64,000 bases of DNA from Undaria pinnatifida (taxonomy: Eukaryota > Sar > Phaeophyceae > Laminariales > Alariaceae). Shown in pieces: positions 1,210 through 47,277 of this stretch (its first letter is position 1; the number at the start of each line of letters is the position of its first letter). The notes under the pieces were generated by a model. That model was given only the letters and a program-made list of their open reading frames with translations. It ran no database searches and had not been told where the DNA came from. Location: contig JABAKD010000002.1 in NCBI GenBank assembly GCA_012845835.1, positions 7,186,603-7,250,602 on the forward strand. The letters run 5' to 3'. Made by a program: the position numbers and the translations under genes.

Positions 1210-4200
1210 ATGTTCAAGCCAGGCGGCCTGTTCGGACCTAAACCAGGCAAGGCAGCACTTGAGCAGGCAGTCGGCACTGGGTCTGGCAGCGATGACAACA
1301 GGGATGCGAAGAAGGGAGGGGGCGACAGCGGTGGGGACAAGACTTACGGTGGTTCGGGTTTCGACCCCAGGGGCTTGGAGCGAGCTGCCAAGGCTGCCAA
1401 GGTGCGTGGTTCTCTAGAGAGTGCAAACTGCTGTGGTGCAAACGCAGCAGCAATCAGTCAGCACAGGTTCGTGAGCGGCATATACTGGATGTGCCTGGAT
1501 GTGCGGACATGGGCGAGTGCTGTTGCCGTGCCGAGCTTTGCTTGTCTCTCGGTGGCCCGTATGCTGCACTAGGAGTCTAGGGAACCTTGCTTTAGCTGGA
1601 ATGGGCGACAATTTGCAGTGCGTGCTTGCTGTTCGCCTTGCAAGCACTCTGTACCGATGCTCCTGGCGCGGGTGGTTCGTGCGCGTAAGCGTTCTTGCAG
1701 CGTGCATATGTTCTGCTTTGCTGTTCGTACCGCTGTTCTGTTTTGTGATCGGAGACTATCAATACCGCGTATGGATACACGGCTGTTGTACTGCCGACGT
1801 AGCAGTAGACGCACTGTTGTGCATCATGCACAACACACAGCAAGCAGTGCATAGTTGTAGTTGCGCTCCTCTAGCATGCTGCCGGCTGCATGTAGTGAAC
1901 GCAAAGCAGCGAATACCTCAACACCTACGAGGCACCGATACCTGGTATACTCCTGAACATGACAAGGACCCGAGGACAGCATCGCTGTACACCCTAGCTA
2001 GGCAGAGAGGTGCCCAGATCAAGAACCAAGTACGAAAACACCCCCAGTGCTATTTTATGGTGACGTCACCAGGCCTCGGCGTTGGGTACAACAGCATGCG
2101 TGCCTATAAATCGGTAGTAAACCCGCGAGGATACCCCAAGATGCCCACAAGGGCCACATACAGCAGCGTCTTGTAGATGATCTATTTAATAGATGATCTA
2201 GATCATGATCTGTCCGAGGTGTGGAGCCTTTGTACTGGATACTGTAGAACACACCCTCTCCTAAACAAGGAACCAAACCTGGATCAGAATTTCTGTTTCT
2301 TATATCTCGCTTGTACTCCCAGTTGGCGTAGTTAGCAGGCTCATCAGATTGATGAACCACCGAGTGTACAAATGTTGTTTGTAACCATTGGTTCGTCCGC
2401 CCGTCGGTCTGTCTGTCCCTCTATATGCCTGTCTGTCATCCCGTCCGTCGGTATGCCCGTCTGCGTCCGTCCATCCGTCGGTACGGGTACGTGTCCACCT
2501 GACAGGTCCTGAACGAGTCGCCGAATGCCGCGATGGCTTTGGAGCTGATCAAGCAGCAGGAGATGACCAAGGCAGCTGAGCACCAAAAGCAACAGGCCGA
2601 GTATTCAGCTTACGTCAAACAGATGGAGGTGACAGCAGTAGGAGTGTTCCCTCTATGATACCGGTATAGCGCCGGTCAAGTAGTGCCGGTGGCCCGCTAT
2701 AAGGCCTTGTGAAATCGCTTGGCACATATCACAAAATTTGTGGGTGGCAGCATGTGGACTATCGCCGGATGCCGCTATGCTGCCGGTGTTTTCGGCCGGC
2801 ACGTACGGGGACTATAGCGAGACCACTACTGCTGTATGTGCGACCAGCGACCACCAAGCGAGGACGACATGATTTTCTCGATCGCTATGCACTAAACTAA
2901 TTTTAATCACTTTTGTTCGTTTCTTTATTTTTGATTTTAGGTTTGTGCTCTGTCTACTGTTAGCCAATAGACTCCCTCCGAGTTCGATCTACGACGATTG
3001 GATCGAGTTTATTTAGTATTGTTTGGGTTAGCACGTATGATAGACATCCGATTTTTTTTTTTATGGTTTCCCACTCCACCCCACCCCAACCCACCCCAAC
3101 CCACCCCACCCCAACCCAACCCAACCCAACCCAACCCAACCCAACCCAACCCAACCCAACCCAACCTCAACCCAACCCAACCCAACCCAACCCAACCCAA
3201 CCCAACCCAACCCAACCCAACCCAACCCAACCCAACCCAACCCAACCCAACCCAACCCAACCCAACCCAACCCAACCCAACCCAACCCAACCCAACCCAA
3301 CCCAACCCAACCCAACCCAACCCAACCCAACCCAACCCAACCCAACCCAACCCAACCCAACCCCACCCCACCCCACCCAACCCAACCCCACCCAACCCAC
3401 CCAACCCCACCCCACCCCACACACGGTGATGGCAGTAATATGTGTTCTGCTGCACGAGTCCCTAACGACAGCACCAACTGCGTTGTTATATATTTGACCC
3501 CACCCCACCCCTATTACAGTATACTAGTATACCCCGTAGCACACGTTTAATTAACTCCACCTCACCCCTACTATATGGCATATTCATGACCGCACCCCAC
3601 CTGTTTTTTCTAGCGTGTGTTTGACTTCACCCTGCTCCACCCCACCGATGTTGTCGTATGAGCAGCTTCAACGTGTGGAGCAAGAGGCCGAGGAAGCCCG
3701 CAAGACTCTGGGGCTGCAGACGGAGGAGGACAAGAAGAGGGCTCAGTTCGCCGACGAGCTCGAGAGGAAACGGCACGTAGACCAGGTACAAAGTATGCAG
3801 CATGCAGTGCGTGGGCTTAGCTGTTTTGTCCTGGGAGGGTTTCGCTCGTATCATGCATGGCCGTGGTCTTTAGGCGCAAGAGGTTGGGTTGACTTGAGTT
3901 GGGTTTGGTTGGGCTGGGCTGGGGTTGCGTGGCATAAGAGGGTGAGGTTGGGGGAGGTTTTAGGAGGACAAACAGAGGGCACAGATCGCCCACGAGCTAG
4001 AGAGGAAACGGCACGTCGATCAGGTGTGATACGCGGCATGCAGTGCATGGGTTGGGCTGGCGGGTGGGGGGGCTGGGGGCGGGGCGGAGGCGGGAGGGGG
4101 GCGGAGGGGTTTGTTTGAATTGTCTTGGCTTGCCTAGGCGTGGGGTGGAGTGGTGTGGGATGGAATAGGATGGGGTTGAGTAGGGTGGGGTGGGGTTTCG

Positions 4201-7200
4201 CCGAGGTGGTGTGGTGTGGTTTGGGGTGGGTGGGGGAGGGTTGCACGAGAGCGTGCGGGGGGGGTTAAGAGGGGTGGGGGGAAGGCGAGCTGGGGAGAGA
4301 CGAAAACGAAAATAGACTACTCGTAAATTAGTAGTATATATGGAAATGAAAGCAAAAATGAGGATGAAAACGAATACGAAAACGAAAACGAGAACCCATA
4401 CGAAAACCAAAAACCAAACCTTTTTTTTTATTCATCAGGTACAAGCGGACCGGTACCTGCGCGACGAGGAGATGCGCAAGCAGGAGGAGCTCACCCGCAA
4501 GCAGGAGGCTGTCCGGCGAAAGACGCTCGAGTACGAGGCGGAGCTGCGGCAGCAGACGGAGCTGGCGCGCGTGAAGGCGGAGACGGAGGGAAAGATCAGG
4601 CAGGAAAGGCAAAACCACGACTTGAGGATGGAGGAGGCCAGGGAGGGGGCCAAGGAGTACCGCGATACCGTACTCGAGGGTAAGTACCATCAGAGGGTAT
4701 GTTGTATGGTTAAAAGAGGAAAGGGTTAAGTGTTCATGGTTGAAAAATTAACGAAAAAAAGAACCGTACCGCCGTGCTGGAGGTTATTGTATGCTTCCTA
4801 TTTGGCAGATAAAAGGTGGTTCATTGTTGGTTGAAAATTAACTATAACCTATCAGGTACATACGGAATATTTATCAATTGCTATTTTGCTGCATGTATGT
4901 TGGAGTGGTGCGTTTCGTTTATCCCGTTTTTTTGGGGGGGGGTGTAAGTCACTTTGTATCGCGATACCACGACGCAAGGGTGGAATAGAGGGGGGGACGG
5001 GGCCAAGGAGTACCCGGACATGGCCGTGCTAGAGGGTAAGAAAGCATACCATGGTTGAGCATGCAGCATCCTCCTTGCGCGTATTTGCCAAAAAAAAACG
5101 CGCAATTGTGTCGTTAACTTGGTCTGTGATGTCGACGCGCCGTCATGTGTAGGGATTAAGCTGGCGGGGGAGACGCTCGGCACGGGGCTGCAGGAGTTCC
5201 TGGGCGATAAGGATAAGATGGTGGCGGCGACGGCCACTCTGACGGCGATGGCCCTGGGGATTTACACCGCAAGGACCGGCACAGGCGAGTAGTTGGTATT
5301 GGATGTTCCGACACGTACTACGGCGGTAGAGGTGCACTGGGTCTTTTGGGCCTTCTGAGGGTGGTGACTTAACGCCGTTTCAACTGGAAACCCTTTTTGG
5401 GGAAATTTTTACTTGAAGTTTGTATAGGAAGGGATGTCTTAACGCCTTCACAACCGGAAACCCTTGTTGGGGACAAATTTACTTGAAGTTAGTTTAGGGA
5501 GGGATGTCTTAGCGCCTTCACACCCAGACGCCCTTTTTTTGGGACAAATTTACTTGAAGTTGGTACAGGGAGGGATTTGGGGGCTCTAAAGGGGTTAAGG
5601 GGCTCCATACCTCACCCCATAACTGATTTTGAGCGAAATTGAAAATGCATTCCGATGAAGAAACGCTTGGCCCAGGTATACAAAACACGTTATTTTGCAA
5701 ACCGAGAATGCAATTCCGACGAGTTTGGGTTAATAACCCCCTGCAGAGCCCCAAAACCCCTCCCGGTACTGATTCCAAGTATTTGTTCCCGAAAAAAAAC
5801 GGGTTTCCAGTAGTAGAGGCGTTTCGAAACCTCGTCATTTCGGAAAGTATTTTGACGTAAATTCGCTACCTCTGTCGTAGCATGCAACTTTTTTTTTTTG
5901 TACAGATGAAACGGCAGTCTTGTTTTTCCTCATGTTCGTTTACATTTTTTTTTTTGCATCTTTCCTTTTTTTTTCAGTTCTTTTTTTTTCTCCTTATCCC
6001 AAACGCATACACCAAATGTTTAACTCCTACTAAATAGGCTAAAACGCAAACCTACCCCAAACAATCAGTATCTAAACAGCCCAAACCAATACCAAACCCC
6101 AACCACCCCAAACCATACCCCACCTCGAGCCCCAAAAACCCACACCCGAACCCCGGATAACAAGCCTATAATAGATACCCCAACAACCCAACCCCTCATC
6201 CCAACGCCAACTCCGATTACGAGGCCCAAAGCTAAATACCACCAACCAAAGCCTACAACCTATTCCCCAACCCAGACCCACCCCGCTCCCCAAAAACAAC
6301 AACCAAACCCAACAACGCAACACCCTGACCCCAAACCCAGACCCCCAGTCTCAACCCCCAACGCAACCCCAAACCCTAACAACCCAAACCCCGAACCCAA
6401 ATCTCAATTCCCAAACCCAAACCGAAACCCAATTAATGCTCCCAAAAACCAACAGGCGTGGCCGGGCGTGCCCACTTCCAAACCCAACCGCAACCCCCAA
6501 GACAAACGCAAACCCCAAACCCAACCACCGTGACCCCGACCCGAATCCTCAACCCCAATCCCCAACCCCAACCATCGCCACCCCAAGCCACAAAAGCCTA
6601 CCCCAATAACCAAACCTAAACAACCCAAACCAAAAACCAACCCCAACAACCCAACCTCATCCACTAACCCCAGCTCTCCCCCCCCCCCCCCCCCCCCTAG
6701 GGGTGGCCGGGGGGGGGGCCGGACGTTTCACGCAAACCCAACCACCCCAACTCGAATCCGAAATCCGACTCCCAAACTCCAACCATCGCCACCCCAAGCC
6801 CCAACCCAAGCCCCAACCCAAGCCCCAACCCAACCCCAAAAACCAAGCCCAAACATCCCAAACCAAAACCCAACCCGAGCAAGTCAAACCCCAACCGCCC
6901 TAACCCCAGCCGTCACCCTCCCCCAACCCCAACCGCCCAACGCCAACCTCAAAACCGCAACAGGGGTGGCCGGGCGTTTCATCGAGGCGCGACTGGGGAA
7001 GCCTTCCCTGGTTAGGGAAACTTCTCGGCGCACCTTCTTCCAGACGGTTCGCAACCCCATCCCTTCCCTCAAGCGTGCTTTCGGCATGACCAAGGTGGAG
7101 GAAGCTTTGAGCGGGGTGGTGCTGGAGAAGGGGCTCGAGACGCGCTTGTCAAGGGTTGCGCAGTCTACGTTTAACACCAAGCGGAATAATGCTCCCTTCC

Positions 7201-9296
7201 GACATCTCCTGCTTTATGGTGAGCGCGGGGGCGGGGCGTATGCTTTTTTGCTGTTGATTTTTTGGTTTCTTATTTTTGCAGGGTAGTCCTCGGTACCGTT
7301 TTTTTTCACGGTACCAGATCGGACGGTATTGCGAAATGACGGTACTTTTCAAACGGTTGACGGTATTTCGATTTCTCACGGTACCACTTTTGGCGGTACA
7401 CGGTATCGCCGAATTTGACGGTACTTTTTCGGCGGTATCGAAAAGTGACGGTATTTTCTAGACGGTAGACGGTTTTTCGATATTTGACGGTACTTTTTTG
7501 GCGGTACTGCAAAACGACGGTACCGGTCCCGGTACTGCCAAATTTGACGGTACTTTTTTGAGGGTACTGAAATATGACGGTTCCGCCACTGAGAAATACA
7601 GAATTACGAATGACGAAATACTTGACAGTACCTGCCGGGCGGCGATCAAGCATGCCGGCACCACCCCGCTGATGCTCCTGCATACCTATATAGAACGGAC
7701 GAATAGAGGCTAGACTAATCGTCGAACCGTCAAGCTGACAAACTCACCAGCCTCACGCGAAACAACATTTAGACATTTAGCACCAAAATAAGACAATAAA
7801 ACAATACTACTACTGTAAACAATAAAACAATAAAACCTAAAACATGAAAACATTCAATGAAAACCATCACCCTACAATCTTTGACGGTTCTGAATATGAC
7901 GGTTTTTCTAAACGGGAAACGGTACTTCGCTTATTTGACGGTACTTTTATGGCGGTGCTGGAAAATGACGGTACTTTTCAAACGGTTGACGGTTTTTCGA
8001 TTTTTGACGGTACCGCCTTCGGCGGTACACGGTTTGCCCAAATATGACGGTATTCCGCCGAGTACCGGGACCGACGTGCAGCACGGGAAAATTACCTCGG
8101 GAATTTTCCCGAGGACTACCCTGTATTTTTCGTGTCGTCCCCCCCCCCCCCCCCCCCCCGTATTTTTTAGTTTTCACCTGACGTGGGTGCGGGAGAGAGG
8201 GCTCGAGACGCGCCTACGTAGGGTTGCGTAGTGTACGGTTATTACCAAGCGGAAGAATGTTCTCTTGCGGCATCTCCTGCTTTGTGGTGAGCGGGGGCCG
8301 GGGACATATATGTTTCTCGTTTTTTTTGTTTTTTTGTATTTTTCGTGTCGTTTTTCTTTTTTCGTATTTTTATGTTGTCGCCCGACGTGAGTGCTGGAGA
8401 GCGGGCTCGAGATGCGCGTTGTCTTGGGCTACGTAGTCCACGTTTTCTAGCACGGGGAATAGTGCTTATTCTCGGCATCTCCTGCTTTATAGAGGGGAGG
8501 GGTGGGGGGAACACTCAGTTTGTGCGTGGCCGTAGTCGTATGACCATTGACCCTCGCATCCCTACTATTCCGGGAAGGAGCACGTCGGGTTTTCACCAGC
8601 CAGGGGGGGGGGGGGGGGGGGGGTACATTTCTCGCGTTTGTTTTTCTTGTTTCGCAATGCGTTTGTTCGAGGTTTCTTTTTTCCTTGCTTGTGTAATACG
8701 TTCTTCTTCACGCAGCGGGTGCTGGAGAGGAAGCTCGAGACGCGCCTGTCCAGAGTTGGGCAGTCCACTTGTAACACCAAGCGGAATAATGGTTCCTTTC
8801 GGGGCATCTGCTGCTCTATGATGAGGGAGCGGGGGTTGGGGGGGGGGGGAGGGAGGGGTGTTTCTTGCTGTGGGCTCTGGTTTCTGTTTTGTTTTTTTAG
8901 CAGTGCCTCGTGCTTCGACGTATGTACGTTTTTACAACCAAACGCTTCCAAGCGGAATAATATTGCCCTCCGGCATCTGGTACTTTATAGTGAGGGTCTG
9001 GTTTGAGGGGATTGGGGGGTTGGAGGTAGAGTGGGGAATGGGTAGGGAGGGGGGGGAGGGAAAGGGTTGGGAAGGGGAACTGAGGGCGGGGGGGGGGGGG
9101 GGGGGGAGGCGAACAACCCAAACCGACCAAACTGAACCAAACCAAAACAAAGAAAATTAATTTAACCCAGACAAATCAAACCGAAACACACGACCAGATC
9201 AAACCAAACCAAAACTCAACTCAACTCAACTCAACTCAACTAAACTAAGCTATACACAAGCCGAAGAACCGCACCAAAACCAAACCAAGTCAAGAC

Positions 9297-9327
<31 letters not shown>

Positions 9328-12300
9328 CAAAACAAGCCATACCAAATATTCCAAGGTTATGTTCTGTAGGGTTTGTGGATTCCGGGCAAGGGTATGGGAG
9401 TCTTACAGAACTTCCAGCAGTTCCGGGTACGGGTAGGAAAGTGTTGCAGAACTTCCAGAAGTTCCGTGTATTGCGGCACGGGCGTACAGAACTCACAGAA
9501 GTTCCGGGCGGGTACAAAAGGTTCGGTACCCGTACCCCGGGTATTGTGGCACGGGGTGCACAGAACTCACAGAAGTTCCGGGTACGGGTATGGATGTCCT
9601 GCAGAACTAACAGAAGTTCGGGTACGGGTATGAAAGTCTTACAGAACTTCCAGAAGTTCCGGGTATTGTGGCACGGGCGTACAGAACTTACATATTTTCC
9701 AGGTACGGGTATGAATGTCCTACAGAACTTACAGAAGTTCCGGGTACGGGTGATTCCCGGGTAAATGCACACCCACCCCCTCGGGGGGGAATTCGATTTG
9801 AAGTGGAGGATTTACCGTATTCTACACAAGATAACACACCCCCGGTGATACATTTGAGCGCTTGAAAATATTATCACCGGGTGTGGTATCCTGTGGGGGG
9901 TGTGGTATCTTGTGTCGCCATATTACTTGGTATTAGACTAAGGCGCTATATTTCGAGCCCCAAAAAATATCACCGGGGTGTCGTATTCTGTGGGGGGTGT
10001 GGTATCTTATGTGGGTGTGTTATCTTGTGTAGAATACGGTAATCCAACTTGCATGGATGGCATGTTCTCACTGGGTAAATGTCCCCGGGGTAATCTGTTG
10101 TACTACGGCTAGCTTTAAGGGAATTATGAATTATCGACAAAACCATCACCGAGAGAGGTGATAAATCGTGAACCTCGATGAGTGGCGACCGGGGCAACAG
10201 CTGCGCTCACTGCAATATTGCGCTGTAACAGATGATACCATAGCGTACCCCGGCTGTGGCGCTTCAAATGAAATAATGGCGGTCGCAAGCCCATATTTTT
10301 CCACCAGCTCGATAAAAGCTAAGTGCCGCGACAAAGAAGCAAAGCTACCGAAAACACAGAGGATAGTTCAAGAGGTCGATGGTAGCTGCTTCGCCATCAC
10401 GGCAGATCCATGTATTATTCTGATCGGAAAAAAAACACTGACAATACGCATCACGTAGTTTCCCGATAGGAGCCACCAAATCGAATCGAATCCAATTCGA
10501 CTGATGAAAAATAAATATTTTCGATTCAAAAGTGTCCTTGGTTAATATAATACGTGCCCACGGGTTAGAAACGAAAGAAACATCAACAGGACCTACAGTA
10601 GTAGTAGGTGCTATCATAATATACGATACGTACTGCTAATACTGGTGTACTTTCGGCGTTCGGTTGGTGTTATTGACAAGATACGACATCATAATATAAT
10701 GCATAATACACTGTTTGGGTTATTAAACCTGAATTAATGCATGTGGGCTCCCCGGGTATTGCAACAAAGGTATACCCGTACCCCGGGTATTGTTTGTGCC
10801 ACAGTCGTACAGAAGTCACAGAAGTTCCGGGTTAGGGTATGGGGATCTTGCAGAACTTATAGAAGTTCAGGGTACGGTACGGAAGTGTTACAGAACTCAC
10901 AGAAGTTCCGGGTATTGTGGCACGGGCGTACATGACTCACATAAGTTATAAAAATGATATGCCCGTACCCCGGGTATTTGTGGCACTGGCGTACAGAACT
11001 TCCACAAGTTCTGAGTACTGGTATGACTGTCGTACAGAACTTCCAGAAGTTCCGGGTACGGGTATGAATGTCCTACAAAACTTACAGAAGTTCTTTGTAC
11101 GGGGTAAATACCCCGGGTATGGTTTGCGCGTACCCTACAGAACCCGACCTTGAAATCATATTTTTTTGTGTGCATCAACGCGACAGGACCCCCTGGTACG
11201 GGCAAGACTTTGTTCGCGAAGGGCCTCGCGAGACACTCGGGGTTGGAATACGCCATTCTCACTGGCGGAGACATTGCGCCGCTTGGGAGGGATGCCGTTA
11301 CAGAAATGCACAAGGTTTTCGACTGGGCGCAGGTGAGAAGGATGCTCATTGGTCAACGCCAGTCAGCTAGAGCGCTCATTGGTTGGTGCCCTTGAAGACG
11401 GTCATTATTTTGGGGTCTCCGATGAGGTAGTAACTGAACCTCGTCCCTGCTAAAGTCAATGTTGCTGTTTCGAGTCTCCCCGGGTCCATATTCGTGCTCG
11501 TGGAGGCTTTGTCTTGCGTGAAAAAATGGCGATCATTGGCGGAAAGCGCGAGAGCGTTGGTCAGCGAAGTTCGATGAAAACTGTTGAGCGTGAAAAAGCT
11601 GATGAAGCAGTGGGAATGCTGAATGAATGAACCCTATGCGCGATAAAAATGAAGGCGAGTACCGGGGGGGGGGGGGAGAAAGACACCTGTGACCACGGCT
11701 TTTCCCAGAAGGTCGTTGAGAGTAAAAGACCTCTTACGAGTTGAGCTGGAAGGTAAAAGTGATAGTGATTACAAAAAAAAAATCGGAAAGGTCAATGACA
11801 CCTTTACTTGAATTCTTCCTTCCCTGATTTTGTTTATATCTATCATTTTTCGCAACTTTGTTCCCAGTTTCCGCACGTATTTATTTAGTGTAATACCTAG
11901 TCGTGCCCCCCCCCCCACTGGACCCACCTGTAGGCGAATCGCAAGGGTCTGCTGCTGTTGTTGATTTCCAACAGCCAGGTGTTAACAGTGTGGGTTGTAC
12001 TGCTGTAAACCCTGTGTGTTTTTGGTTTTGTCCCCCCCAACCAACTCCACTCTATGATTCTACCCCGGTCTTTGTCCAGCCAACGCCCAAACCCCAACAC
12101 CCCCATTCCTAACCACACCACCCCCACCTTCAATCCCTCCACCGTCAACCCCCCCCCCCCCCCAACCTCCATTGGCGAGCCGCAAAGGTCCGTTCTGTTT
12201 GTTGACGAGGCGGATGCATTCCTCACACCCACTCCCAACCCCCCCTCCAACCCCTAATCCCCCCACCCCCCCCCCTCTAGGCGAGCCGCAAGGGTCTGCT

Positions 12301-15300
12301 GCTGTTTGTTGACGAGGCGGATGCATTTCTCCGACGGCGCAACACGGAAACGATCAGCGAGGACCTCCGTAATGCCCTTAACGCCTTCCTCTACCGCACG
12401 GGAGAATCCACGGTGAGTACATTCCGATAGGTTTTCGACAGCTACGGAGGCATGTACGAAGTTCTTTATTGTTTGGGTATAGTTTGGGCAGTGGTGACGA
12501 CAGGGAGGGGGGGGAGGGATGTGTTTCTCCGACAGCACAACGCGGAAACGATCAGCGAGGACTTCGTAATGCTATCTACGGTTTCCTGCACCGTACCGCG
12601 GGTAATCTACGGTGGGTATATGGTAAACGGTTTTTGATTACCACAGAGGCATGTTGCTCTTTATACGTTGGACGGGGGGCGGGGGGGCGGGGGGCGGGGC
12701 GAGATGACAATCGTATCATGCATGGGGGTAGTCGGTAGGACCAGTGATCGGAAGAGGGGAGGGGACTACTAATAGCCTCTGAGCGCCTTCCTTTACTGCG
12801 CTAGATATTTCACGGTGAGTACATGTGTTTTTGACAGCCATAGAAGTCCGGGGGGGAGGGGGGGCGGTTAGGACAGCGAGAGGGAGGGCGGAGGGGGGAG
12901 GGGGGGCGGTTAGGACAGCGAGAGGGAGGGCGGAGTAGGGGCGGAGGTGGTGTGTCGAACCGTGTAGTGGGTATATTTCATATCGGGCGGATGAAAACAG
13001 CCCCAACAACAACGCGGACGTCATCCCCGCCGCCAACAACAGCAACAACAACGTCCGTATCAACACCACAAACGTCAGCAACAAATGAGTTCAATCACTA
13101 AGCCATGGTGTTCTACCGCCTTCATGTGCAATGTACATCGCGACCTCAACGCTATCTGTTTCAGGATAAGTTCATGCTGGTGTACGCGTCCAACCAGCCG
13201 GAGCAGTTCGACTGGGCTATCAACGACCGCATCGATGAAATGGTGCCTTTCGACCTCCCCGGGAAGGACGAACGCCTCCGCATGGTGAACCTCTACATGA
13301 AGAACTACCTCCTAGATCCTCCGGGGAACGCGAAGGTTATCACTGTGAACGGGATCGAGGTGCGTCTTTTTTTGGATTTTGTTGGGTGTTTTCAGGCCTT
13401 TTTTTTCTCGTTCCGGACAAAAAAACTGTCTTGTCCTGTGATTTTGTTTTGAGTGTCTTTTTCATGTGCTTTTTTCTTTTTTTTTGTAATATATTTTTTT
13501 CGCGTACCTGTTTTTTTTCAGGATTTTTTTCTACAGCAGTAGTGGTTGGTGTTGATGAACGCCTCCGCATGGTGAACGTCCACATGAAACCCTCCTCTGG
13601 GAATTACCAAGGTCATCGCGGTGGATGGCATCTAGGTCATTTTGTTTTAATGAGCTTTGTTGCTCATGCTGTTTTTTTCGGTGTTTTTTTTTCGTGTGTG
13701 TGTCTGTTGTGCTTGTTGTGTTTTGCATTTTTGGTGTTTTTTTCGTGTGTTGTTTTTGTGTTGTTTGCCTATTGTATTGCTTTTTGTGTATTTTTTAATT
13801 AACTCCCCCTGCATGGTGAACCTCTACATGGATATTTAGCTCCTAGACCCTCCGGGGAATGCCAAGGTTATCACGGTTGATGGGATCGAGGTGCGTCTGG
13901 GCTATTTTGTCCAGCCCTGTGCATTGTAAATTTCTCATTACGAAAAACTATTTTTACGAGTAGTTTTAGATTTCTGTCCTCATCGTCTAGCTTGAATTCG
14001 ACCGCGACCTCGAGCTTCACCTTGACCTCGACCTGGACAGCGACTTTTCCGTTTGGTTGTGTCATTCACCTTGAATTTGACCGTGAGCTAGACCTTGACT
14101 TTGTCTTTGTCCTTCACCTTGAAGTCGGCCTTAACCTAGATTAACACGTTGTCCTTACCTTGTCCTCGACGTTAACCTTTACAGCGACCTTGACCGTGGC
14201 CTTGTCCACGTCCTTGACCTTGAACACAGGTTCGACCTTGTGGCAGTTACCTTGAAATTGGCCGTGTCCTTCACCTTGCATCTTGACCTTGATGTTGACC
14301 GCGACCTTGACCGCGACCGCGACGTTGCGGCCTTGACCTCGACCGCGACCTTGACCTTAAGCTTAGCCTGAACCATATTATAAAATTTACCCTCAACGTT
14401 AACCTTATCCTTAAGCTTGGCCTTAATCGTAACCATAAGTTTAACCTCAATATTAACCTCATCCTTATCCCCTTTGCACTTGGAAACCCATTTTAAATAT
14501 CGGGAGGGTTTTGGCGCTCTAAAGGGGTTAAGCTTAATTAGCCTTAACTTAATTAGCCTTAGCCCTATCCTTAAGCTTCGCCTTAATCCCGACCGCCTTG
14601 ACCTTGACCATAAGTTTAACCTTGAGCCTTGATCTTAACCCCTTTGCAACGGGAAGCCCTTTTCGGGGGGATAATTTCCTTGGAGTTTGTATCGGGAGGG
14701 GGGAGGTTGAAGCTCATAAGCTTGAAGGTTGAAGCTCATAAGCTTGAAGGTTGAAGCTCATAAGCTTGATTGGCCTTAACCGTAAGCATAAATTCAACCT
14801 CGTCCTTAGACTTGTCCTTAAACTTCGCGTTAATCCCGACCGCCTTGGACTTAACCATAATATTAGCCTTCGCCGTGATCTTAACCCCTTCGCAACGGGA
14901 AACTCTTTTGGGGGGAGACAGTTTACTTGGAATTTGTATCAGGGGGGGGTTGAGGCTCATAAGCTTGATTGGCCTTAACCGTAAGCATAAATTCAACCTC
15001 GTCCTTAGACTTGTCCTTAAGCTTCGCCTTAATCCCGACCTTTTCTTTGCCTTAGCGTACACCGTAACCTTTTCCTTTTGTCCCGTTTTTTTTTCACGTT
15101 GTGTGTGTTGTGTGCTTGTGCTGGCAGGACTCCCACCTCCAGCGGGTGGCTGACGTGACGGAGGGGTTCTCGGGTCGAGAGATCGCCAAGCTGGCGATCG
15201 CCTGGCAGGCAGCGGCGTACGGGACGCCCGACTCGTCGTTCAACGCGGAGCTGATGGACGAAGTGTTGGAGGTGACAGCAGTTACATAGCGGAAATAATA

Positions 15301-24148: not shown

Positions 24149-24225
24149 GCCCTTTTCACTGAGCTCGAAGCGTCCCATGCAGCAGCGCCTAGATGTACCC
24201 GCCGCGGCAGCTCAAAGGGAGGGAC
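24149..24225 (-). pseudogene. Ghost copy of the last proton-channel exon (3' end)
   Basis: On the reverse strand this matches the C-terminal coding end at about 24366-24440: ARCTGCCGCGGCGGGTACAT-type sequence, then GGGACGCTTCGAGCTC, against the parent's GGGACGTTTCAGACCC. It is degenerate and lies just downstream of the true stop. Confidence 0.65.
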
Positions 24226-24365
24226 GCGTCCCTGCCCCCCTCCCGCCTCTCCGAGACATTTTATCCCCTCGAGACTGCCATCGCCACCCCCACCGACCCT
24301 CACAGCAACACCACGACCACCACCACGCCACCACCACCAACACCACGACCACCACCACCCCTTTT

Positions 24366-27300
24366 TCATTGGGTCTGAAACGTCCCATCCTGTAGCACAT
24401 AGATGCGCCCACTGGGGCGACGGCTCGTCGAAGGGGGAGCTTTTCCTTGATCATCCCCGCTTCGAAATCCGCCTCCCTCAAGACTCCTCTTCTCGCCGGC
24501 GGTCGAAGACGAGCGGTCGCTGGCAGTTTCTGTAGCGGTCGGAGATAAGCCAGGTTTTCGTTTTTTTTCGTCAGATGCGGTCGATTTAAAAAATTCAGCT
24601 TTTTTTGTTTTAACGCCATCTTCGCCGGTGTTTCTGTCGATGGCGTCGTCGTCTGCTACTCCACCCACCAGATCGGGTGGTATGCGAGTCTCGGCGATGT
24701 CCATGGCGGCGATCTTAAGGGCTTCATTCAGGGTTTCCACCTGCTTGTTTTTATTGTAGAAAAAATGGAGTATGCACAATTCACGAGCTGTGAGATCGAA
24801 GGATTATATTTGCAAGATGCGTGCCGGCAACCTACTCCGGTCTGCTACTACTTAAAAAACAATATTTACAGTCTCATACTTGTCTTGAAAAATTGGGCTG
24901 CGTTGTAAAAGAGGGTAAGGGCCTCGTTCGGTGTTTCCACCTGATGGTTTTACGGCAGTCGTTTAAAAGAACATAAGGGAGAGCGTGCTCCAAGGCGACG
25001 GTGTCCTCCAGTAGAATATTAGCGATAATGGAGAGCGTGAACCAATTGGGGGGGGGGGGGGGAGGTTTGAGGAGGCGGCGGGAGGGCCAGTGTTTTGAGC
25101 AGGGGCGCGAAAGGACGCGAGCTACGCTAGGGTAGCCGTTGTTTGGTTACAAAAAGCTCTCTGCACCTGGAAACCCTTTTTTGTGGGAACATTTCACTTG
25201 CAATCATTAGTGTAGGGAGGGCTTTTGGGGTATTAAGAATAAGGTTAAGGACCTCCTTAATTGTGGAGCTTACCTCATATTTGTTTTACGATCCGACATC
25301 TTTTTTAATTGGGTACCATAGTATTCTTCAGTTCGGGCGGGTGGAGGCTTCTGGTCAGATGGTTGAAATTTCGACACGTACCGCGATAGAGGTGAGCCTT
25401 TTTTCTTTTTTTTTCTAGATTGACTTTCGAGGAGCTCCACACCCCGTCCGAAACACGGTTCTTGAGCAAAACTGAAAAGCTCAATCCGATAATCAAACCC
25501 GTGGTCGTCCATGGTATACGAAAAAATATTTTTGTCAAATCAAAGAAGGGATATTTTTTCTTTCAATGAGTTCGGGCTAGGGAGCGTCCTGGTCAGTCAG
25601 CTTTGTTTTAGACCGACATAGTGCTATCATACCTCTCTAGTAGCACCCGCATCTCATCTCTTGGCCCGTCCCCTGTTTTTCCCTCAAGAACAACGCCATC
25701 CAAGGAACACGCCACCACCTTTTTTTCCCGTGCTGCATTCCTAGATCTGACATAATCCTAGATCCTCGGTTTTAACTGGGTTCCCAAAAAACATACCGTA
25801 CACGGAGCTAGGAGCGTAGGTGTACCTCGTCCTTGTAGCCTTGCAGCATTTTGTCGACCCTTTTTCTCGCATTGATCTCCCGTCTAATCGTTTCTTGCAA
25901 TCGCCTCTTCTCTATGTCCAAATCCTGCGTTCGCTGTTGGTGACGAAGCCGAAGGTGGGTGGGGTGGGGTGGTTGGGCGGGGTGTGGTTAAATAGCACAA
26001 CAAACGGGAGAAGGGAGGGGATTGGAGACGTTACTGTTACATGCTTTTCGTCGTGCTGCAGGTAATGCGCCAAGCACCTCTCACAGATGCATCGACGAGA
26101 GAAACGCGACCGTTCAGCCGAAAGACCCTCGAACGTCTTTGCGGCATGGCAGAAGCGTCGGAAGCGATCCAATTTTCTGGAACCGATGTGAAGGAGGTGA
26201 GAGCCGTGTCAATACCGTTCGCTGGCGACTTTTCTTTAGGTAGGCATATTTTCTACCGGCTGTACACACTCTCTCGAAACGGGGTGGGGGGGTAGGAGCC
26301 CGGACCGCTCTTGCATGTTGATGGCGGTAGTTTCTAAGACACCGCATTTTTCTAGCAGCTGGTGATCTGTCGATCCAATTCTCTGGAATCGAGCAGGTGC
26401 TGAGAGCCAGATCGCTACTCTTCGCTGGCGACTTTTCTTCACGTACCCACCTTTCTTTTAACAATCGCGGGTAAGCTGTGGAAATGGGGAGAGGGTAAGA
26501 AAAAAGCCCGGTCGACTCATTTCACGCTTGTTGCGACTTCTTACACATAGCGCACCGTTTCCAGCAGTTGACGACTTCTAGATGCAGTTCAATGGAATCG
26601 AGCCGAGGATAAGAGCTAGGTCGCCACTGTTTACTAGCACATTTACAGGTACACACCTTCTCTAACAGCTGGACCTTGTCTAGGGTGGCACCGTGGACCG
26701 CGTCCGCCGCTAGCAAGGCCGTGTTCATCACCCTCGCCACTCGCCAGACCCGCAGAGCTCCAAGTAGTCGCAACCCTGTTGGCGCGTTTTTGAGGCGGGG
26801 AGCGGGGGACGGGATATCTTAGGAAGATTAGTATTTTTAGGTGGCGTAATTGAGGTGGGAGGGGGGGACGGAGACACGAACTTGAGATAAAAGTTTAGCA
26901 AGGATAAAAGGTTGGCGTGCTCAGCAAGGCCATATTCACTAGCCCGCCACCTACAACACCTGCAAAGCACGGAGCAACCGAACCCCTGCTGGAGTGATTG
27001 GGCGGGGGAATGGGAGCGAGAGAATACTATTGTTTTTCTTGATATATAAATTTGGCCATTGACTACTCATCCTTTTAGAGACGGAGCACCGGGGAGAGGG
27101 TTGGTCGCATCCGTGTTGGCGTGGTTGGGGCGGGGCACGGGGGAGATGATGTGGATAGAAGAGGAGTGTCCATGCGCAAGGCATCGTACGTAAAACCTAT
27201 TGTTTTACCGTACGCGTGTTAAACGTGTTTCTGGCAAGTCATATGTGCCACCCCTACCCGTCCCGTAGTTTTCTTGGAAGGGGCAAACAGAAACTACAGC

Positions 27301-29917
27301 GAGGTTTAGCACGAGCAGCAGGTTTATCGTCAACCATGGCCTCCTCTACGCGCAAGGCATATAATAGAAACCCATTGCTGTACCGTGCCATTGAGAGGGT
27401 TCTGCTCCACTTCTCCCACAACATTGACAACGGAATCTTATCTCCGGGGGAAAACGGCATCTTCGACACTACTCGTGGCAAACATCACCTTTGCCCATCC
27501 CAGCCATTTCTTGATAGAGGCACACGGAAACCACGGCGAGGTCTAGGACGTATCCCAGGTGTCTGAAGAAGTTTCCTCGGAACGCGGCCAGGAGAAGAAC
27601 CACCTCGATCGCGAACAGGATGATCGTGAATCCTGTGAAAGACTGCCGAACACGAGAGGGCGTGTGCGGGTAGCGGCAAGGGGATTGGTTTGGCGTGTAG
27701 CTGTACAAGATGGGGTGCAATATATTGCCAAGCGAATAACAAGCATGTGGATCAGAACGAAGACCAAATGTTTTGGGGGGACGCTGAAGAGTCTGGATGA
27801 GATGCATTTAGCACCGCACTCACGACATGCGGACAAAACACTTGGAATTAAACTAGGATAATGTTAGGAGTTGGAAATGGGTTAAGCAATCGTGCTCAGC
27901 GGCGATCGCTACGCTAAACCCCATGTAGTGGCCTGTACAAGACTGCCGGCGAGCGCATCCGTGCGCGGGCGAGGGGAATGATTGGTGTGTAGACACGCAC
28001 GAGTTCAGCTGCCGGTACGGTAAGCACGTTGCCGTAAACAGGAGTGCAGGCACCTCACGGGATCAGATACTTCAAGTTTGCCGGACCAGGGAAGCAGTTT
28101 CACGGGTTTCTAACTATTTAGGCGGACCTCTGGTTATCGTCCACCCGGCTGCCTGCCTAGGATGCGTGAGAGGATCAGATCCTGAGTCGGTACCAGAAAA
28201 ACAGCGACATCTCTTTTCTTGCCACCACCCTTTATTTTCTATAGAAACGCACCTACCGTTTTTGTTGGACACATTGTCTGGAGCTATTACAGAGGACGAT
28301 AGTAAATAGGACCAAATATTGTTAGTAAAATAGATTAATATATATGTTTTTGTGTTCACCGTAGGTCCTATTTACTAGGGTCCCCCGTAATAGTATGCGA
28401 TAATTGTTCCCAGTGATGTAACCGGGTAAAGATCACCGCCCTGGATGCCTGCGTATCGTATCTTCGTCACGCTGGTGCCTCGGCATTGAACACACCGAAA
28501 ACAAGGCCCGGTTGTAGCCTTCCAGGCATGGAAACCTGCGTCGCCTACGTAGCGTTTCGTGCATCCCACCCCCCTTGGTACGGTGCGTCCGTCATACACC
28601 GTTCACACCCCCAAGAGGATCCAAACGCGGTGAGGTGCCTCCCTTTTTACGACTGTAAAAATCGTGTCATGCTACTTCCAAGAACATTTTACCCAAACCC
28701 GGGGTGCACTTTTCACGCGCCAAGCGATGAAAATGAGGCGGAAAACTGTCCTGACATAACTACAACGATCATCCCACATTTCTGCCCAATACTGAAACCC
28801 CTAAAACTGTCGGATACTAGGCTTTAACATATTCACTATATGCGTTGAAGCTCGTTAGTTTATGTTGCGCTTCGTCGTCTCAGGTTGCGCCGCATTTCTT
28901 TGTGTAACGTATCTACCGAGATATGCTCGAGCGGAGAGTCCTTGGTTGGATACGTAGCTGAGTTCTTCGTCGGAGTTCCATGCGATTGGTACGCGTTTCG
29001 TCTCTTTTCTTGGTATCAAGCTCTACGAATTCTGCTGTAATGATGCAAGACGAGCGTCGTCGCTGGTATGACCAGGTTGATTTTGCATGAAGTGAAGCGG
29101 AGAGAAGAATCAAGACACCGTCCTTTAACGGGCATTTGGCCCTCCTCTGTAGAACCGCAGCTGTGGTATGCATCACTCACACGTACGCAGACACCTTTTC
29201 TACCAACACTTTTTTCCGTTCCTGCAGGCAGCTACACACGAGTACCATACATACCGGATTGTATACACAGGTTATGAGAGAAAATTTACATCCAATGCCT
29301 TCATCATGCGTGGCAGGGTCAACATGGAAATATGCTCTTCCGAAACCCCAGGCAAAGCACTTGTCTTCAATAGGTAGTCGCCTACCGTGCATCCAACCTG
29401 CTGTACTTGAGGCCTAAGGAGGTACAGAAAATCAGGGCGCGCTTGCGTCAACAGGGGTTAAATCGTGGCTACGCTGTATGTGACCACAAAATCGCCGGAT
29501 TTGGCTTCAACGTCGGTGGAATAGTGAATACAGTGCTGCTTCGAAACTCCATCAACCTGCAGAAACATTGTCGTAATCTTGTGAAGCATCGCTGTATTCA
29601 CGATCAGACTGTTGCGTGATATCGGTCGTAATGTTGTGAAACAGCTCTATTTTCTTTACATTCACGATTATACTGCTTTGTGATATCGAGCGAACGATTC
29701 AACTGACCGTCGTACCTGGAGAAGTCGCACGACGAGACGGATCACCCATGCACCGGTCGAACCCTCTCTATCCCCCCCTTCCCCCTTCTCGTCGGCCTCC
29801 CCCGCTCGCAGGAACAGCGGCAGGAGCTGCACGGTGCTAGCCACCAAATCCAGAAAAATTATCGTAACCACGGCCACCTGATAAAGCATTGTTACGGGGG
29901 AACCTATTTGGAATCAT

Positions 29918-30005
<88 letters not shown>

Positions 30006-40400: not shown

Positions 40401-43400
40401 TATGTAGGCTTTACTCGTGCCCGTCTTTCTCTCCCAGTGGTTTGTTTGGGAGTTTACACAGTTCTAGGTCCGCGCAGGCTGGCATGATACGTGTGGCGCC
40501 CACCGCTGAGAGTGTGTGTGGGCAGGTGTGGTACAGCAGTAGTGGGGGCCCACTACTTGGAACTGCCACTATTGGGTGTGTGTGATGCCCAAAATGCCAC
40601 TATTGAGGGCCCCGTCCTCAATAGTGGTAAAGTGCCACTATATCGGGTTTAGATTTTGCCAGGAGATTTTCATGCCACTATATAGGGCACTTTACTATTC
40701 AGGTTGCCACTATATACAGGGCCACCTACTGTAGTCGTACGAGTAGCGTAGGGCAGTTCGCCCGGGAGATGGAGATGGTTTCCTTTCTCGTGTGTGATTC
40801 AATCCTGTTAACAACGGATCTCCGCAATAGGAGGCTAAGAAAAATAATGGTTGATGCGCCTTTATCGCCGTAGTATGTTGTCACTGTTGAGAGTTCCCAA
40901 CGGTAAGGGGAGTGAGCTGTGAGGAACGGAGAGGTTGGGCTCCCTGAAATGTTTCGAGTCGGTGTGTCCGAGTGGTTAAGGAGATGGATTTGAAACCCAT
41001 TGTAATCTCACGCGCGGGTTCAAATCCCGTCGCCGACTTTTCTTTTTTGTTTTTATTTTTGCTTGTGCTGCCGTTGCCACGGTGGTACTATGTTATAAAA
41101 ATTAAAATACGCTCCAGCTGTGAGATCGAAGATTATGTCGTTTTATATATAGCACCGTTAGTTCGGGAGCCTAGTTCGATTGAAACACAGTGCATATGCC
41201 CGTGTGGTAAAAAGCTTAACGTCATTTTTGCCCGTCCACCGGAGGATTATACATAGGAGGCAAACTGACTTTTTTCAGGCGTTTATTGATATCCTTGACG
41301 GCACCCGCGCCTGTTGGTATGGTAAAACCATCTCATGACTGTCCATGCAGGTTTTAATTTTTTCGGTTTCTCCCCCCCTCTCTCCCTCCCTCCCTCTCAT
41401 TTCCGGCTGTTGCCATTATTACTGTCGCTGTCGTTCCGCGATCCGTTTTTTTTTTTTTTTCCTTCTCGTCGGTGACATGACGGTTTCATCTGAACAGGAA
41501 CCTGGCACCAATGCCGAAATACAGGTGCGCGGCGGACTTGTGTTGTTTTGTGCGTTGTGTCTCTTTTGCCTCCAACATACCTGGTGCACCAGTGTTTGCG
41601 TGTGCGTGTGCGCGCGTGTGTTTTAAAACGAAAATCCAATCTGCTGTGTGGTACGTATGGCACGCGTACTTATGTGTGCCGTACCTTCGTTTGCTTTTTT
41701 TGTTTTCAAGTACAGTGCACCACACGCACGGCAGGGAAGGCTGGGTTTGTTTTGCAAGGTTGGTGTTGTTCCTGTCAATTTCCGTGTTTGTTTGCACTGC
41801 ACCGTTCACAGCAGCGACACGAAAAGCGCACCCACGGTTTCAAACTACTTGGAACTAGTCTGGCTTGATTTTCGCAGTCGAAACATTTTATTAATGTTAC
41901 CAAAACAAAGAGAGCGCGGCGTTCTGCATTGACGTCCTCTCTCTCTCTCTGTTTCCCCCCCCCCCTCCCTCTGTCGTCGCACCTCACGCCCTGTACAATT
42001 TTTGCCCCCGTCGTGCGCTGCGGTGGTGTGCAAAACTGGAAACCTTCAAACCGGTTGGCTTTTTTATTTATAATGCGATTTGCGACAATGCCGGCCGACG
42101 CCGCGACAAATGCTGCAACAACCCGATGCTGGAACAAAAAAACACCGGAACGACATCCCGCAACGAAACGCTGGAACACATCATCGAAAAATATGCAATA
42201 CCGTGTTCGAAAACGCTGGACGCCAACTCTGAAAATGCTGGAACGGGACTTGGAAAATTCTGGAACAAACCTCTGGATTGAATTGTCCAGGAGTTTGCGA
42301 AAGCAAGGGGAGCAACCTACCCCATCTTCGCCAAGGTCGATGTGAGTGGGAATTTATATGTGACGATGGTTGGGTGGGTTGTATTGTGACCTTCCAATGT
42401 GGAAATTGCAGTAGTGGTCCCGCTATAGTGCCGGTCTCTCTATATTGCCGATTGCCATCTATCTATAGTGCCGATTGCCCAGATATAGTGCCGGTGAAAT
42501 CGATTGGCACAGGTGAGAGCAACAAGTAGTGGTAGTATGCGGAGTAATGCCGGTTGAGAACAAAGAGGCCAGGAGACGGCACTTTCACCTACTCTTGACT
42601 GACGGCAATTTCCAGTAATTTGTCTTGACTGACGCCAAACTACTAGGTTTTAGTGTGGAACGGTCAGGTTGGCGCCCTTGACCGCAGGACGTTTTCCCTT
42701 GACTGACCGTCTCCTGACATCTTAGGGTTGAGAAGGTATTGATCCTGTATTTGTCGTCATTGAATGCTTTGCAGGATCTGTGTATTGAATAGATAGCACG
42801 TGCCATGGGTTATGAGCTAGATCATCCGGCTGCCGCGCGGCAACCGCCCGGCAACATGATGTAGGCCGTGCAGACCCTAATGACCGTGAGAAAGGCCTGT
42901 CCTGGAAGGTGAACATGAGCATGAATAGGGATACGATCTGTCCGGTGTGTGAAACCATTCGCTAGCACGGCAGCTAACGACTATTGTTGCTGCGACGCCT
43001 TTCGTGATTACCCGAGATAGATGCCGTCACGAAAGCTTTCGCAGAACATGGCACCCAACGGCCAACGCTCCAGCGACGCTATTCGTAAGGCCAAGAGATT
43101 TTATGACGTCATGAAAGCGTTCGTGAAACATGATAGCCAACGGCTAATGTGATTGGCGGATTCGGTGCCATTCCGATGTACAAGTTTTTTTAAAGACGAT
43201 CAGGCCGGCGGCTTTGGGTCAACGATATGAAGCATCGAATATTCAACATCGAACATCAAATACCGAACATCAAGCATCGAACATCTATTATCGAACGTTT
43301 AATATCGAACATCAAATATGAACATCGTATATGGTATACAAAGCGCATGGAATGGTGAATATCGATGACATATTCACGACCCGATATCAAGTATCAACAA

Positions 43401-44477
43401 TCGAACATCGAATGTCGAATATTCAACATGGGACACTGAATCTCAACATGAATTGTGGAAGATCGAATGTCGAACGTCAAATGCCGAACGTTAAAAATGG
43501 AGTCAAATGTGGTACCCCGCGCATGGAACGACTCATATCTAACATGGAACATCGATTATCGAACAGGTTAACGATGAGATATCGAATGTCAAATATCGTA
43601 TATACGTGGCGCATGGAACATGTAACATCGACAATCGAATGTCAAACATCACATATCGAACATTAGTCTATATATCGAACATCTTTTGTCCAACATCTAT
43701 TATCGATCATATAATATCGGTAATCCGACAGGTTAACGGCTTCGGTGCCATCCCGCTGTACAAGTTCCTAAAGGACAAGCAGGGCGGCGGGTTGGGCATC
43801 AGCGCCATCAAGTGGAACTTCACCAAGTGCGTTCGCTTGTGATCTAGACGACATTTGAGCACCGACATTTTTGTTTCTGCGTGCTTTGGCTGTTGTGATG
43901 TGGCCTTTCTTTCGTGACCTTTTGCGTTCGTTGGCTGCTGAGTTTCTTTGTTACTGGCTGCTGAGTTTCCCTGTTATTTCTGCGTTCGTTGGCTATTGTA
44001 GAGTGCGGCATTTTCATTTTGCGTCCATTGACTACAGATGCGGTGATTTTTTTCTTTCGATTTGCGTTCACGTTTCTCTTTGGTTCTGTTTTATTTTCTT
44101 CCCAAGTGTGTTTGTACGATGGCATGGACGAAGGGAGAAGGGGGTTGTCAGTGCCTGTTTGTTTTGTTCTCCATCAAGCGGAGATTCACCAAGTGCGTTC
44201 ATTCATCGGCTACGACCGACACTTAGTTTTTTATTGCGTTCATCGGCCGCTTGTGGTTTTACGACTACGGCCGTGCATGAAATGAGTACCCCCTCCGCAT
44301 CCCACGTCTCTATGGCGAACGTTTGAGGTTTTACAACGGGTATGTCAACAGCTTTCCCGATCAACGGCTCTCTCTTGCAGGTTCCTCTGCGATGCGGCGG
44401 GTGTACCGATCAAGCGCTTCGGCCCTACGGAAAGCCCCTTTTCCTTTGAGGAGGACATCAAGGCTCTCCTCAAATAA
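34440..44477 (+). CDS. GPX4: Selenocysteine-containing glutathione peroxidase (PHGPx/GPX4-like), 7 exons
   Basis: Exons: 34440-34477, 35560-35681, 36900-37003, 41498-41524, 42291-42341, 43732-43826, 44381-44477 (534 bp, 177 aa including Sec, phases consistent). The enzyme reduces lipid and hydrogen peroxides with thiols. The active-site motif is NVASK-U-GLT, where residue 53 is an in-frame TGA (35678-35680). Reading continues across the splice into GLTPQNY, as in all GPX proteins. The catalytic tetrad is complete: U53, Q88 (NQFGSQ), W142 and N143 (KWNFTK). [15 protein letters not shown] and KRFGPTESP are family signatures. The usual Cys in FPCNQFG is Ser here (S82). The short N-terminus [13 protein letters not shown] shows no strong targeting peptide. 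Lack of the animal oligomerisation loop fits a monomeric PHGPx/plant-type enzyme. A conventional gene finder would break the gene at the TGA. The symbol is by similarity. Confidence 0.93.
35678..35680 (+). other. In-frame TGA selenocysteine codon (U53)
   Basis: TGA replaces the catalytic Cys/Sec codon within GCG AGC AAA TGA, one base before the GTGGGT donor. Flanking residues NVASK and GLT on both sides of the intron are those of the GPX active site, so this is recoding and not a pseudogene stop. Confidence 0.9.
38690..39110 (-). pseudogene. 3' fragment of a non-LTR retrotransposon (LINE) ORF
   Basis: The reverse strand reads the typical C-terminus of LINE reverse-transcriptase polyproteins: [24 protein letters not shown], then [15 protein letters not shown], then [10 protein letters not shown], then [20 protein letters not shown]. 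One in-frame TAG (39004-39006) interrupts it, and the rest of the ORF is absent, so it is a dead 5'-truncated copy. It lies antisense in GPX intron 3 and ends next to a truncated tRNA-Ser copy. Confidence 0.75.
39164..39213 (+). pseudogene. Truncated tRNA-Ser(UGA) copy
   Basis: GTCGGTGTGTCCCAGTGGTT onward matches the first ~45 bases of the tRNA at 40958-41037 and then diverges inside the variable region. About 45 bases of 5' flank (GCTGTGAGGAACGGAGAGGT) are also shared, so this is a genomic duplication and not a processed copy. No T arm or 3' acceptor strand. Confidence 0.85.
39849..40731. mobile_element. TA-flanked TIR element (Tc1/mariner-like ends), 883 bp
   Basis: Left end CAGTAGGTGGCCCTGTATAG and right end TATACAGGGCCACCTACTG are inverted, and TA stands directly outside both ends (39847-39848 and 40732-40733). 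TGCCACTAT words are repeated many times in both subterminal regions. Internal frames (40072-40320 +, 40003-40221 -) show no recognisable transposase, so it is non-autonomous or decayed. It lies in GPX intron 3. Confidence 0.8.
40958..41037 (+). tRNA. tRNA-Ser, anticodon TGA (reads UCA)
   Basis: Acceptor GTCGGTG pairs with CGCCGAC (7 bp, one G-T). The D arm is TCCGAGTGGTTAAGGAG. The anticodon loop TTTGAAA gives TGA, and the T arm is GCGGG-TTCAAAT-CCCGT. A T-run terminator follows. Odd points: A-C mismatch at the base of the anticodon stem (31-39), a short weakly paired variable arm (13 nt), and T at the discriminator position instead of the usual G. It sits in sense inside GPX intron 3. This is not tRNA-Sec, whose anticodon would be TCA. 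It may be a functional gene or a recent pseudogene. Confidence 0.8.
43139..43220 (+). pseudogene. Ghost copy of GPX exon 6
   Basis: GGATTCGGTGCCATTCCGAT...TACAAGTTTTTTTAAAGACG parallels the exon's GGCTTCGGTGCCATCCCGCT...TACAAGTTCCTAAAGGAC. The frame is broken by a stop and an extra base. It lies about 590 bases upstream of the true exon, separated from it by a minisatellite. Confidence 0.85.
43215..43730. repeat. ATCGAACATC minisatellite in GPX intron 5
   Basis: Degenerate tandem 9-12 bp units (ATCGAACATCAA, AATATCGAAC, GTCGAATATC) fill about 500 bases and end at the acceptor of exon 6. The reading frames through it are compositional. Confidence 0.85.
44168..44200 (+). pseudogene. Ghost copy of the 3' end of GPX exon 6
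   Basis: CCATCAAGCGGAGATTCACC followed by AAGTGCGTTC repeats the end of exon 6 and its donor (CCATCAAGTGGAACTTCACC, AAGTGCGTTC). It lies about 350 bases downstream. With the copy at 43139, exon 6 has partial ghosts on both sides. Confidence 0.75.
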
Positions 44478-47235: not shown

Positions 47236-47277
47236 AGCTGTGGCCGCGCCTTTCTGCGTAGCAACGCAGAGCGTCAC

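Follow-up and report, generated by a model that had tools for sequence, protein, structure and literature searches.

Partial exon copies in three Undaria pinnatifida genes

The window analyzed here is a stretch of 64,000 nucleotides from the brown alga Undaria pinnatifida (contig JABAKD010000002.1, labelled C26, positions 7186603–7250602; GC 49.7%), and the genome used for wider searches, large and intron-rich, holds 511,146,479 bases in 68 contigs. Three genes can be recognized in it: ATAD3 on the + strand, a gene resembling voltage-gated H+ channels on the − strand, and the glutathione peroxidase gene GPX on the + strand. Exons of all three have partial, decayed copies in the adjoining introns. 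The original prediction, made from the sequence, had named ATAD3 exons 3, 4, 6, 8, 9 and 10, three H+-channel exons and GPX exon 6 as parents of such copies. The whole of that list was recovered: 10 of the 21 exons placed have between them 19 partial copies.

The 21 exons were placed by translation or reading frame together with splice sites. ATAD3 (1210..15840, +) has 11 recognized exons (A1–A11) based on Pfam ATAD3_N and AAA matches, reading frames and splice sites; no exon was found by reading-frame and splice-site placement for the protein stretch between A6 and A7. Exon 5 of ATAD3 apparently has a GC donor (GCGAGT, window 5285–5290), and a long array of CCCAA units lies within an intron of the gene (3070–3420). 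The H+-channel gene, incomplete as placed, is assigned by its match to PDB 5oqk, ‘voltage-gated hydrogen channel 1’ (E 1.4e-5); its Ion_trans match of 22.2 bits lies below the 25-bit cut-off. GPX is assigned by a Pfam GSHPx match (E 9.5e-33). It has an in-frame TGA at 35678–35680, which reads N-V-A-S-K-U-G over an exon junction. The protein is probably a selenoprotein because this TGA stands at what we take to be the active-site residue. No selenocysteine insertion sequence (SECIS) element was found near the end of GPX by Rfam.

Each exon was compared with the 3 kb on either side of it, after masking of homopolymers, short-period tandem repeats and exon sequence throughout; the threshold score was 34. 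Direct matches at or above this score were found for A3, A4, A6 (four copies), A8 (four), A9 (two), A10, the GPX exon G6, and the H+-channel exons H_S2S3, H_S4 and H_Ct. The other 11/21 exons (A1, A2, A5, A7, A11, G2–G5, G7 and H_CC) gave no match, which counts against the generality of the observation. In the reverse-complement and reversed controls, none of the 21 exons reached 34 (best 33, for H_S2S3, and 28), and masked queries gave 9/21 direct against 0/21 in either control. The alignment of exons to their flanks that had been proposed with the original prediction, run with controls on these 21 exons, therefore gave an excess in the direct orientation only. All 19 copies have the parental orientation, and their distances from the parent range from about 0.1 to 1.8 kb, as had been claimed (always parental, within about 2 kb). 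They are what was kept of 20 matches, the one dropped being an internal match of H_Ct (q157–197) to 21610 with score 34 at a distance of 2.7 kb. As a swap control, exons were aligned to the flanks of other exons at distances above 7 kb; a score of 34 was reached by 4 of the 324 pairs, and the highest score was 36. Because of this, the weakest copies (A10, 34; H_Ct 24916, 34; H_Ct 24171, 36; G6 44171, 32) are near chance by score alone, and they rest on position and extension instead.

The extension of similarity beyond each copy was compared with 100 null anchors per copy, placed away from the locus, and was called significant when it beat at least 97 of them; null counts given below are the anchors not beaten. 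Outward extension runs over the splice site into the intron, and inward extension runs deeper into the exon. ATAD3 exon 3 (3648..3785) has one 3′-end copy with GT present (3962..4023; 54/62 identical; outward extension 0/100 null). Its units adjoin, with 3724–3950 aligning to 3962–4178 at 68% in the self-comparison of the window. The copy of exon 4 (parent 4439–4679) is also a 3′-end copy, with GTAAGA (4961..5035; 50/75; 6/100 null). Exon 6 (parent 6964–7218) has four 3′-end copies: 8186..8286 with GTGAGC (82/101), whose similarity runs 89 nt further into the intron; 8387..8490 (80/104) and 8718..8820 (85/103), both with the donor lost; and the short 8948..8988 with GTGAGG (33/41). Exon 8 (12281..12412) has copies on both sides. 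Upstream are 5′-end copies at 11934..11964, with the acceptor AG retained (29/32), and at 12175..12224, with the acceptor lost (46/51), and downstream are 3′-end copies at 12517..12611 with GT retained (75/96) and at 12749..12814 with GTGAGT retained (48/70). Exon 9 (13165..13359) belongs to a three-unit array with starts near 13267, 13554 and 13801. The units overlap in the self-comparison (13267–13637 and 13554–13892), and the two 3′-end copies are 13554..13635 (67/93) and 13801..13890 with GTGCGT (75/90). A short 3′-end copy of exon 10 (parent 15128–15271) with GT is found at 15628..15646 (18/19, near the chance limit). All of these are on the + strand.

The H+-channel copies are on the − strand. 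The S2–S3 exon (H_S2S3, 27489..27632) has a 3′-end copy with GT retained, downstream in the sense direction (27257..27313; 42/57). The S4 exon (H_S4, 26657..26775) has a 5′-end copy upstream in sense, with an acceptor-like AG one base off (26919..26984; 47/68), and beside this exon there is an intronic tandem pair at 26165..26659 (26165–26453 against 26371–26659, 66%). The C-terminal exon (H_Ct, 24381..24740; right limit set by the acceptor, left limit approximate) has a 5′-end copy with AG upstream in sense (24916..24940; 21/25; extension 3/100 null) and a 3′-end copy downstream in sense (24171..24208; 28/38). For GPX exon 6 (G6, 43732..43826, +), a 5′-part copy lies upstream (43157..43224, +; 53/69) and a short 3′-end copy with GTGCGT lies downstream (44171..44192, +; 19/22; extension 0/100 null), from which the similarity runs 71 nt on into the intron.

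Geometry and decay of the copies

Each of the 19 copies holds one end of its parent exon (within 5 nt) and none holds both. The parental 3′ end is held by 14 copies, 13 of them at a donor, and the 5′ end by 5, in line with the claim that the donor is usually the site kept. The side on which a copy lies follows the end that it holds: 3′-part copies are downstream and 5′-part copies upstream of the parent in 19/19 cases. Counted once per exon side, this rule holds in 13/13 (two-sided p = 2.4e-4), and in 17/17 when four AAA-family loci from other contigs, described below, are added (p = 1.5e-5). Outward extension is significant in 13/19 copies, with scores of, for instance, 60, 52, 48 and 78 for copies of exons 3, 6, 8 and 9. 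The duplicated segment disregards gene boundaries, both in these runs from exon into intron and in its occurrence in non-coding DNA. The side rule follows necessarily when the two limits of a tandem duplication fall in an exon and in an intron, and random local insertion need not produce it. On geometry, the mechanism is thus narrowed down to tandem duplication. Processed (retro) copies were also considered and are ruled out by the 13 copies that run on into neighboring intron sequence.

The copies differ from their parents in a way that depends on the parental codon. Over the 19 copies, mismatches at codon positions 1, 2 and 3 number 59/390, 58/394 and 107/396 (0.151, 0.147 and 0.270), a rough figure for the ratio because the copies are not independent (four come from exon 6). 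In our reading of the sequences, changes in the copy would be spread evenly, at about 0.15 per site, with further changes, mostly at third positions, coming from the parent; this fits neutral decay beside a constrained parent. The copies are about 67–95% identical to their parents, many with gaps, and 13/19 have an in-register stop or gap. The remaining 6/19 have neither, and all are pieces of at most 62 nt; to this extent some copies keep an open frame, as had been noted. GT is retained in 10/12 donor-side copies of the + genes and also in the S2–S3 copy, a proportion compatible with neutral decay at 0.15 per site (0.85 squared = 0.72). Among the acceptor-side copies, AG is in place in 2/5 and one base off in a third. 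Exon pieces probably stay recognizable for longer since the parent is constrained.

Searches of the whole genome indicate how local the copies are. With a 148-base piece of exon 6 and its intron as the query, the only matches were the parent and three of the copies, all within 1.7 kb. The short fourth copy escaped detection, so weak copies may also exist elsewhere. Exon 9 found itself, the copy at 13801 and one place on contig C38 near a second ATAD3 gene (a paralogous exon), and missed the copy at 13554. The counts from such searches are lower bounds: close copies elsewhere are absent, and decayed ones may exist.

Local direct duplication beyond exons

Exon-sized non-coding tiles starting in the three gene spans have direct matches in 74/236 cases and reverse-complement matches in 15/236. 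Scored alike, exons (9/21) and tiles (74/236) do not differ significantly (Fisher p = 0.33), and copying targeted to exons was rejected given the similar rate in the non-coding tiles. The picture along the window is uneven, and inverted matches are about as common as direct ones at 16–24 kb. Related repeats, some in each orientation, are clustered at 16098–21900 and 39467–39548.

A wider sample was taken as 19 evenly spaced 10-kb stretches of contig C26. Direct pairs with offsets up to 1 kb number 59, spread over 12 of the 19 samples, and inverted ones number 6, in 3 samples; at 3–10 kb, there are 31 direct and 19 inverted pairs. Direct pairs up to 1.5 kb take up about 8.1% of the bases and inverted pairs 1.3%. 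The suggestion that intron growth comes partly from such copying is upheld as far as a lower bound: local direct pairs that can still be detected account for about 8% of the bases, and roughly half of this is added DNA.

For comparison with other genes, 22 AAA-family exon loci on other contigs were aligned to 1.5 kb on each side, with the protein match standing in for the exon. Direct matches of at least 34 were found at 5/22 loci, reverse-complement matches at 0, and a reversed match at 1 (L028). L028 (direct 46, reversed control 36) was set aside because the matching sequence belongs to the same open frame, further upstream, which leaves 4/22 (L031, L035, L036 and L043). At each of these loci, the copied part extends to within 4 nt of the end of the protein match that faces the copy. 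The copies at L031, L035 and L043 have stops in the parental frame, and the one at L036 is open (by eye). The same kind of direct excess is seen in non-coding tiles, in other AAA-family loci and in the spaced samples, which supports the proposal of the original prediction that a recurrent local process, rather than gene-specific exon duplication, is at work. The second ATAD3 gene on C38 (L026, 5482–9160) has a different exon layout, with the exon 5 region split into two exons; the match of exon 5 to two places there was considered as a duplication and rejected, as it reads as the two split exons.

Spacing was examined in 34 independent pairs (24 from the samples and 10 from the window) with identity of at least 70% and offset up to 1 kb. 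Eight of the 34 abut; of the 26 that do not, 14 have a spacer that is itself duplicated (p ≤ 0.03 in either of two tests, uncorrected). Two pairs at L008 with 95–97% identity abut within 2 bases. In the window, non-coding examples include a three-unit tandem duplication downstream of GPX (45032..45787, +; pairs 71% and 78%) and a young tandem duplication with an offset of 221 bp and 95% identity (46795..47239, +), which itself holds a 34-base sub-repeat. Tandem Repeats Finder (TRF) also detects many short-period arrays, and the long-unit duplications are thus the long-unit end of a spectrum.

Offsets were scanned, ungapped, over 342 kb (20 stretches of 10 kb, the 22 AAA loci and the window in slightly overlapping pieces), which gave 154 direct events at 81 loci, compared with 6 in the between-sequence control. 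Offsets per locus are mostly below 300 bp; their density falls from 30 to 180 bp and rises again from 180 to 300 bp. The latter range holds 25 loci versus 9 interpolated (Poisson 9e-6; 7e-4 versus the shorter-neighbor density alone), a lead rather than a result because the bins were chosen after viewing the histogram.

Several other repeats were observed in the window. A tRNA-Ser gene (TGA anticodon, 40957–41039; segment 40887–41039) has a truncated direct copy 1.8 kb upstream (39096–39212), which comprises flanking sequence and the tRNA's 5′ part (89% identity) and follows the side rule of the exon copies. A dispersed repeat, probably a mobile element, occurs in both orientations at 8494–8615, 31408–31589, 32325–32666, 48927–49221 and 62943–63064, with 68–93% identity between copies. 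A CAG-type repeat at 59153–59572 is read as glutamine in an open frame.

Origin of the copies and comparison with known systems

Taken together, the copies are very probably remnants of local tandem duplications of genomic DNA that are widespread in this genome. Units of ~0.1–0.6 kb, often ~0.2 kb, would be duplicated so that the new unit adjoins its source in the same orientation, presumably by replication slippage or backward template switching, or by unequal exchange. Where a unit has one of its limits within an exon and the other in the intron, the exon would remain intact, and one exon end with its adjoining intron would be added to the intron, so that the exon piece would land on the side of its own end. 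Such a piece would have a single splice site, could be ignored by the spliceosome and would decay neutrally. A unit with an entire exon would give the gene an extra exon that can be spliced, and selection would remove it. No whole-exon copy is found among the 19. If units with the observed offsets are placed at random, 48% of full-or-partial exon events are expected to be whole, compared with 0/13 exon sides seen (P = 2.2e-4; P = 1.6e-5 with the four AAA loci added), a calculation that takes units to be as long as their offsets. Whole-exon units may thus be purged by selection against an additional spliceable exon.

Some observations weigh against this interpretation. Two exons of the C38 ATAD3 paralog (L003 and L006) have no copies. 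Outward extension is not significant in 6/19 copies (A4, A6 8387, A6 8948 and A10, 6–13/100 null; G6 43157 and H_S2S3, 19 and 21/100), and inward extension is significant in one of the 19, H_Ct 24171. The window has no direct excess at 30–35 kb, and the spaced samples have none at offsets of 1–3 kb (11 direct and 16 inverted). The spacer is without duplication in 12/34 pairs; in addition, a pair at L023 (95%, offset 483) passed the spacer test via a T-rich tract, and by eye ~180 bp of its spacer is unshared. The deficit of whole exons would weaken if units were shorter than offsets. Tandem duplication remains the main process in our reading, and a minority of pairs may reflect spaced insertion or later loss.

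The spaced pairs would also suit repair-mediated capture, in which intronic double-strand breaks are filled by synthesis-dependent strand annealing (SDSA) on a nearby template and a local copy is inserted at the break. Proximal duplicons within 5 kb, with a median of 147 bp, have been documented in vertebrates (PMC2671141), and the donors of the present copies all lie within that distance. Most of the copies are too old for their junctions to be read for filler, deletion or microhomology. However, breaks at random nearby sites should not link the exon end to the side of the copy, yet the two are linked in 19/19, and the same-strand preference within 1 kb is 59:6, whereas an inverted exon copy is among those reported (PMC2671141). 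Capture of this kind is conceivable but rather unlikely as the source. Insertion by transposable elements that had captured exons deserves hardly any credence: dispersed repeats do occur in the window, and one (8494–8615) lies beside the exon 6 copies, but the two ATAD3 pieces searched in the genome show no close dispersed copies, exon 6 being found in the 511 Mb only as the parent and its neighbors, and neither parental orientation nor side-specific placement would be expected.

If the copies were functional tandem exon duplicates, they would serve as alternative or mutually exclusive exons. Animals are known to have exons of this sort (PMC9013439), and some copies, for instance that of A3, retain a splice site and an open frame. 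Against this, 0/19 copies are complete exons with both splice sites, stops or gaps interrupt most of them, and the mismatch of 0.15 at codon positions 1 and 2 is more than half the rate at position 3, where little change would be expected at the first two positions of a working exon; a functional role is very improbable. An assembly artefact from collapsed or misjoined haplotypes is improbable to the same degree, since identities of 67–95% with gaps and a third-position excess need long evolution in place, and the same pattern recurs in 12/19 sampled stretches.

As to the molecular step, a more specific idea is that duplication prefers a step of ~200 bp, near the nucleosome repeat or the Okazaki fragment, and that retained, displaced nucleosome-sized fragments of the lagging strand lengthen introns genome-wide and leave one-ended exon fossils. 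We regard this as a speculative and distinctly unlikely proposal. If tandem duplication of this kind is genome-wide, the exon pieces are neutral fossils, each next to a parent under constraint, and could provide a local clock and a rate for small tandem duplications, as well as a direct estimate of the share of intron length that they contribute. The missing whole-exon copies would offer a way of measuring selection against extra exons, and annotation pipelines based on protein similarity may call false exons at such copies.

The kind of event is already known, and its density and the ~200-bp preferred offset are the points of interest. No earlier report of the same observation in brown algae was found in the literature among titles and the opening lines of abstracts. 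The ‘doublets’ of Thomas et al. in 2004 are said to be local, same-strand short duplications in several eukaryotes, exact pairs of 25–100 bp that are near-tandem or ~1 kb apart. They would be of the same local, same-strand kind, although the offsets here are mostly below 300 bp and the copies are decayed. The Exonize catalogue describes exon pieces in introns or over exon–intron boundaries as possibly unannotated or degenerate exons, and genes with partial, inter-boundary or intronic events outnumber those with full-exon events (PMC12343006). It shares with the present case the matching of exon pieces in introns; it covers annotated genes, whereas in the present case the pieces can be linked to tandem duplication in general through the side rule, their neutral decay and the controls in non-coding DNA. 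Tandem exon duplications and mutually exclusive exons likewise comprise tandem genomic units with an exon and adjoining intron, but those duplicates are or may be spliced (PMC9013439; PMC6071210), in contrast to the partial copies here. About 2% of human exonic bases have homologs of at least 80% identity in the same gene (PMC9013439); the density in this window (10/21 exons) looks high, although the two are different measures. The repair-mediated proximal duplications are similarly local copies of ~150 bp, some with exons and splice sites, and the two exon copies examined for selective constraint show none (PMC2671141). Pairs within 50 bp were removed as tandem in that study, whereas here pairs within 1 kb are nearly always in direct orientation and 8/34 abut. 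Tandem genomic duplication can also give rise to introns: when an AGGT within an exon is duplicated, a new intron is made (PMC3443670). The event is of the same kind, but in the present case the second breakpoint falls in an intron that already exists and is lengthened.

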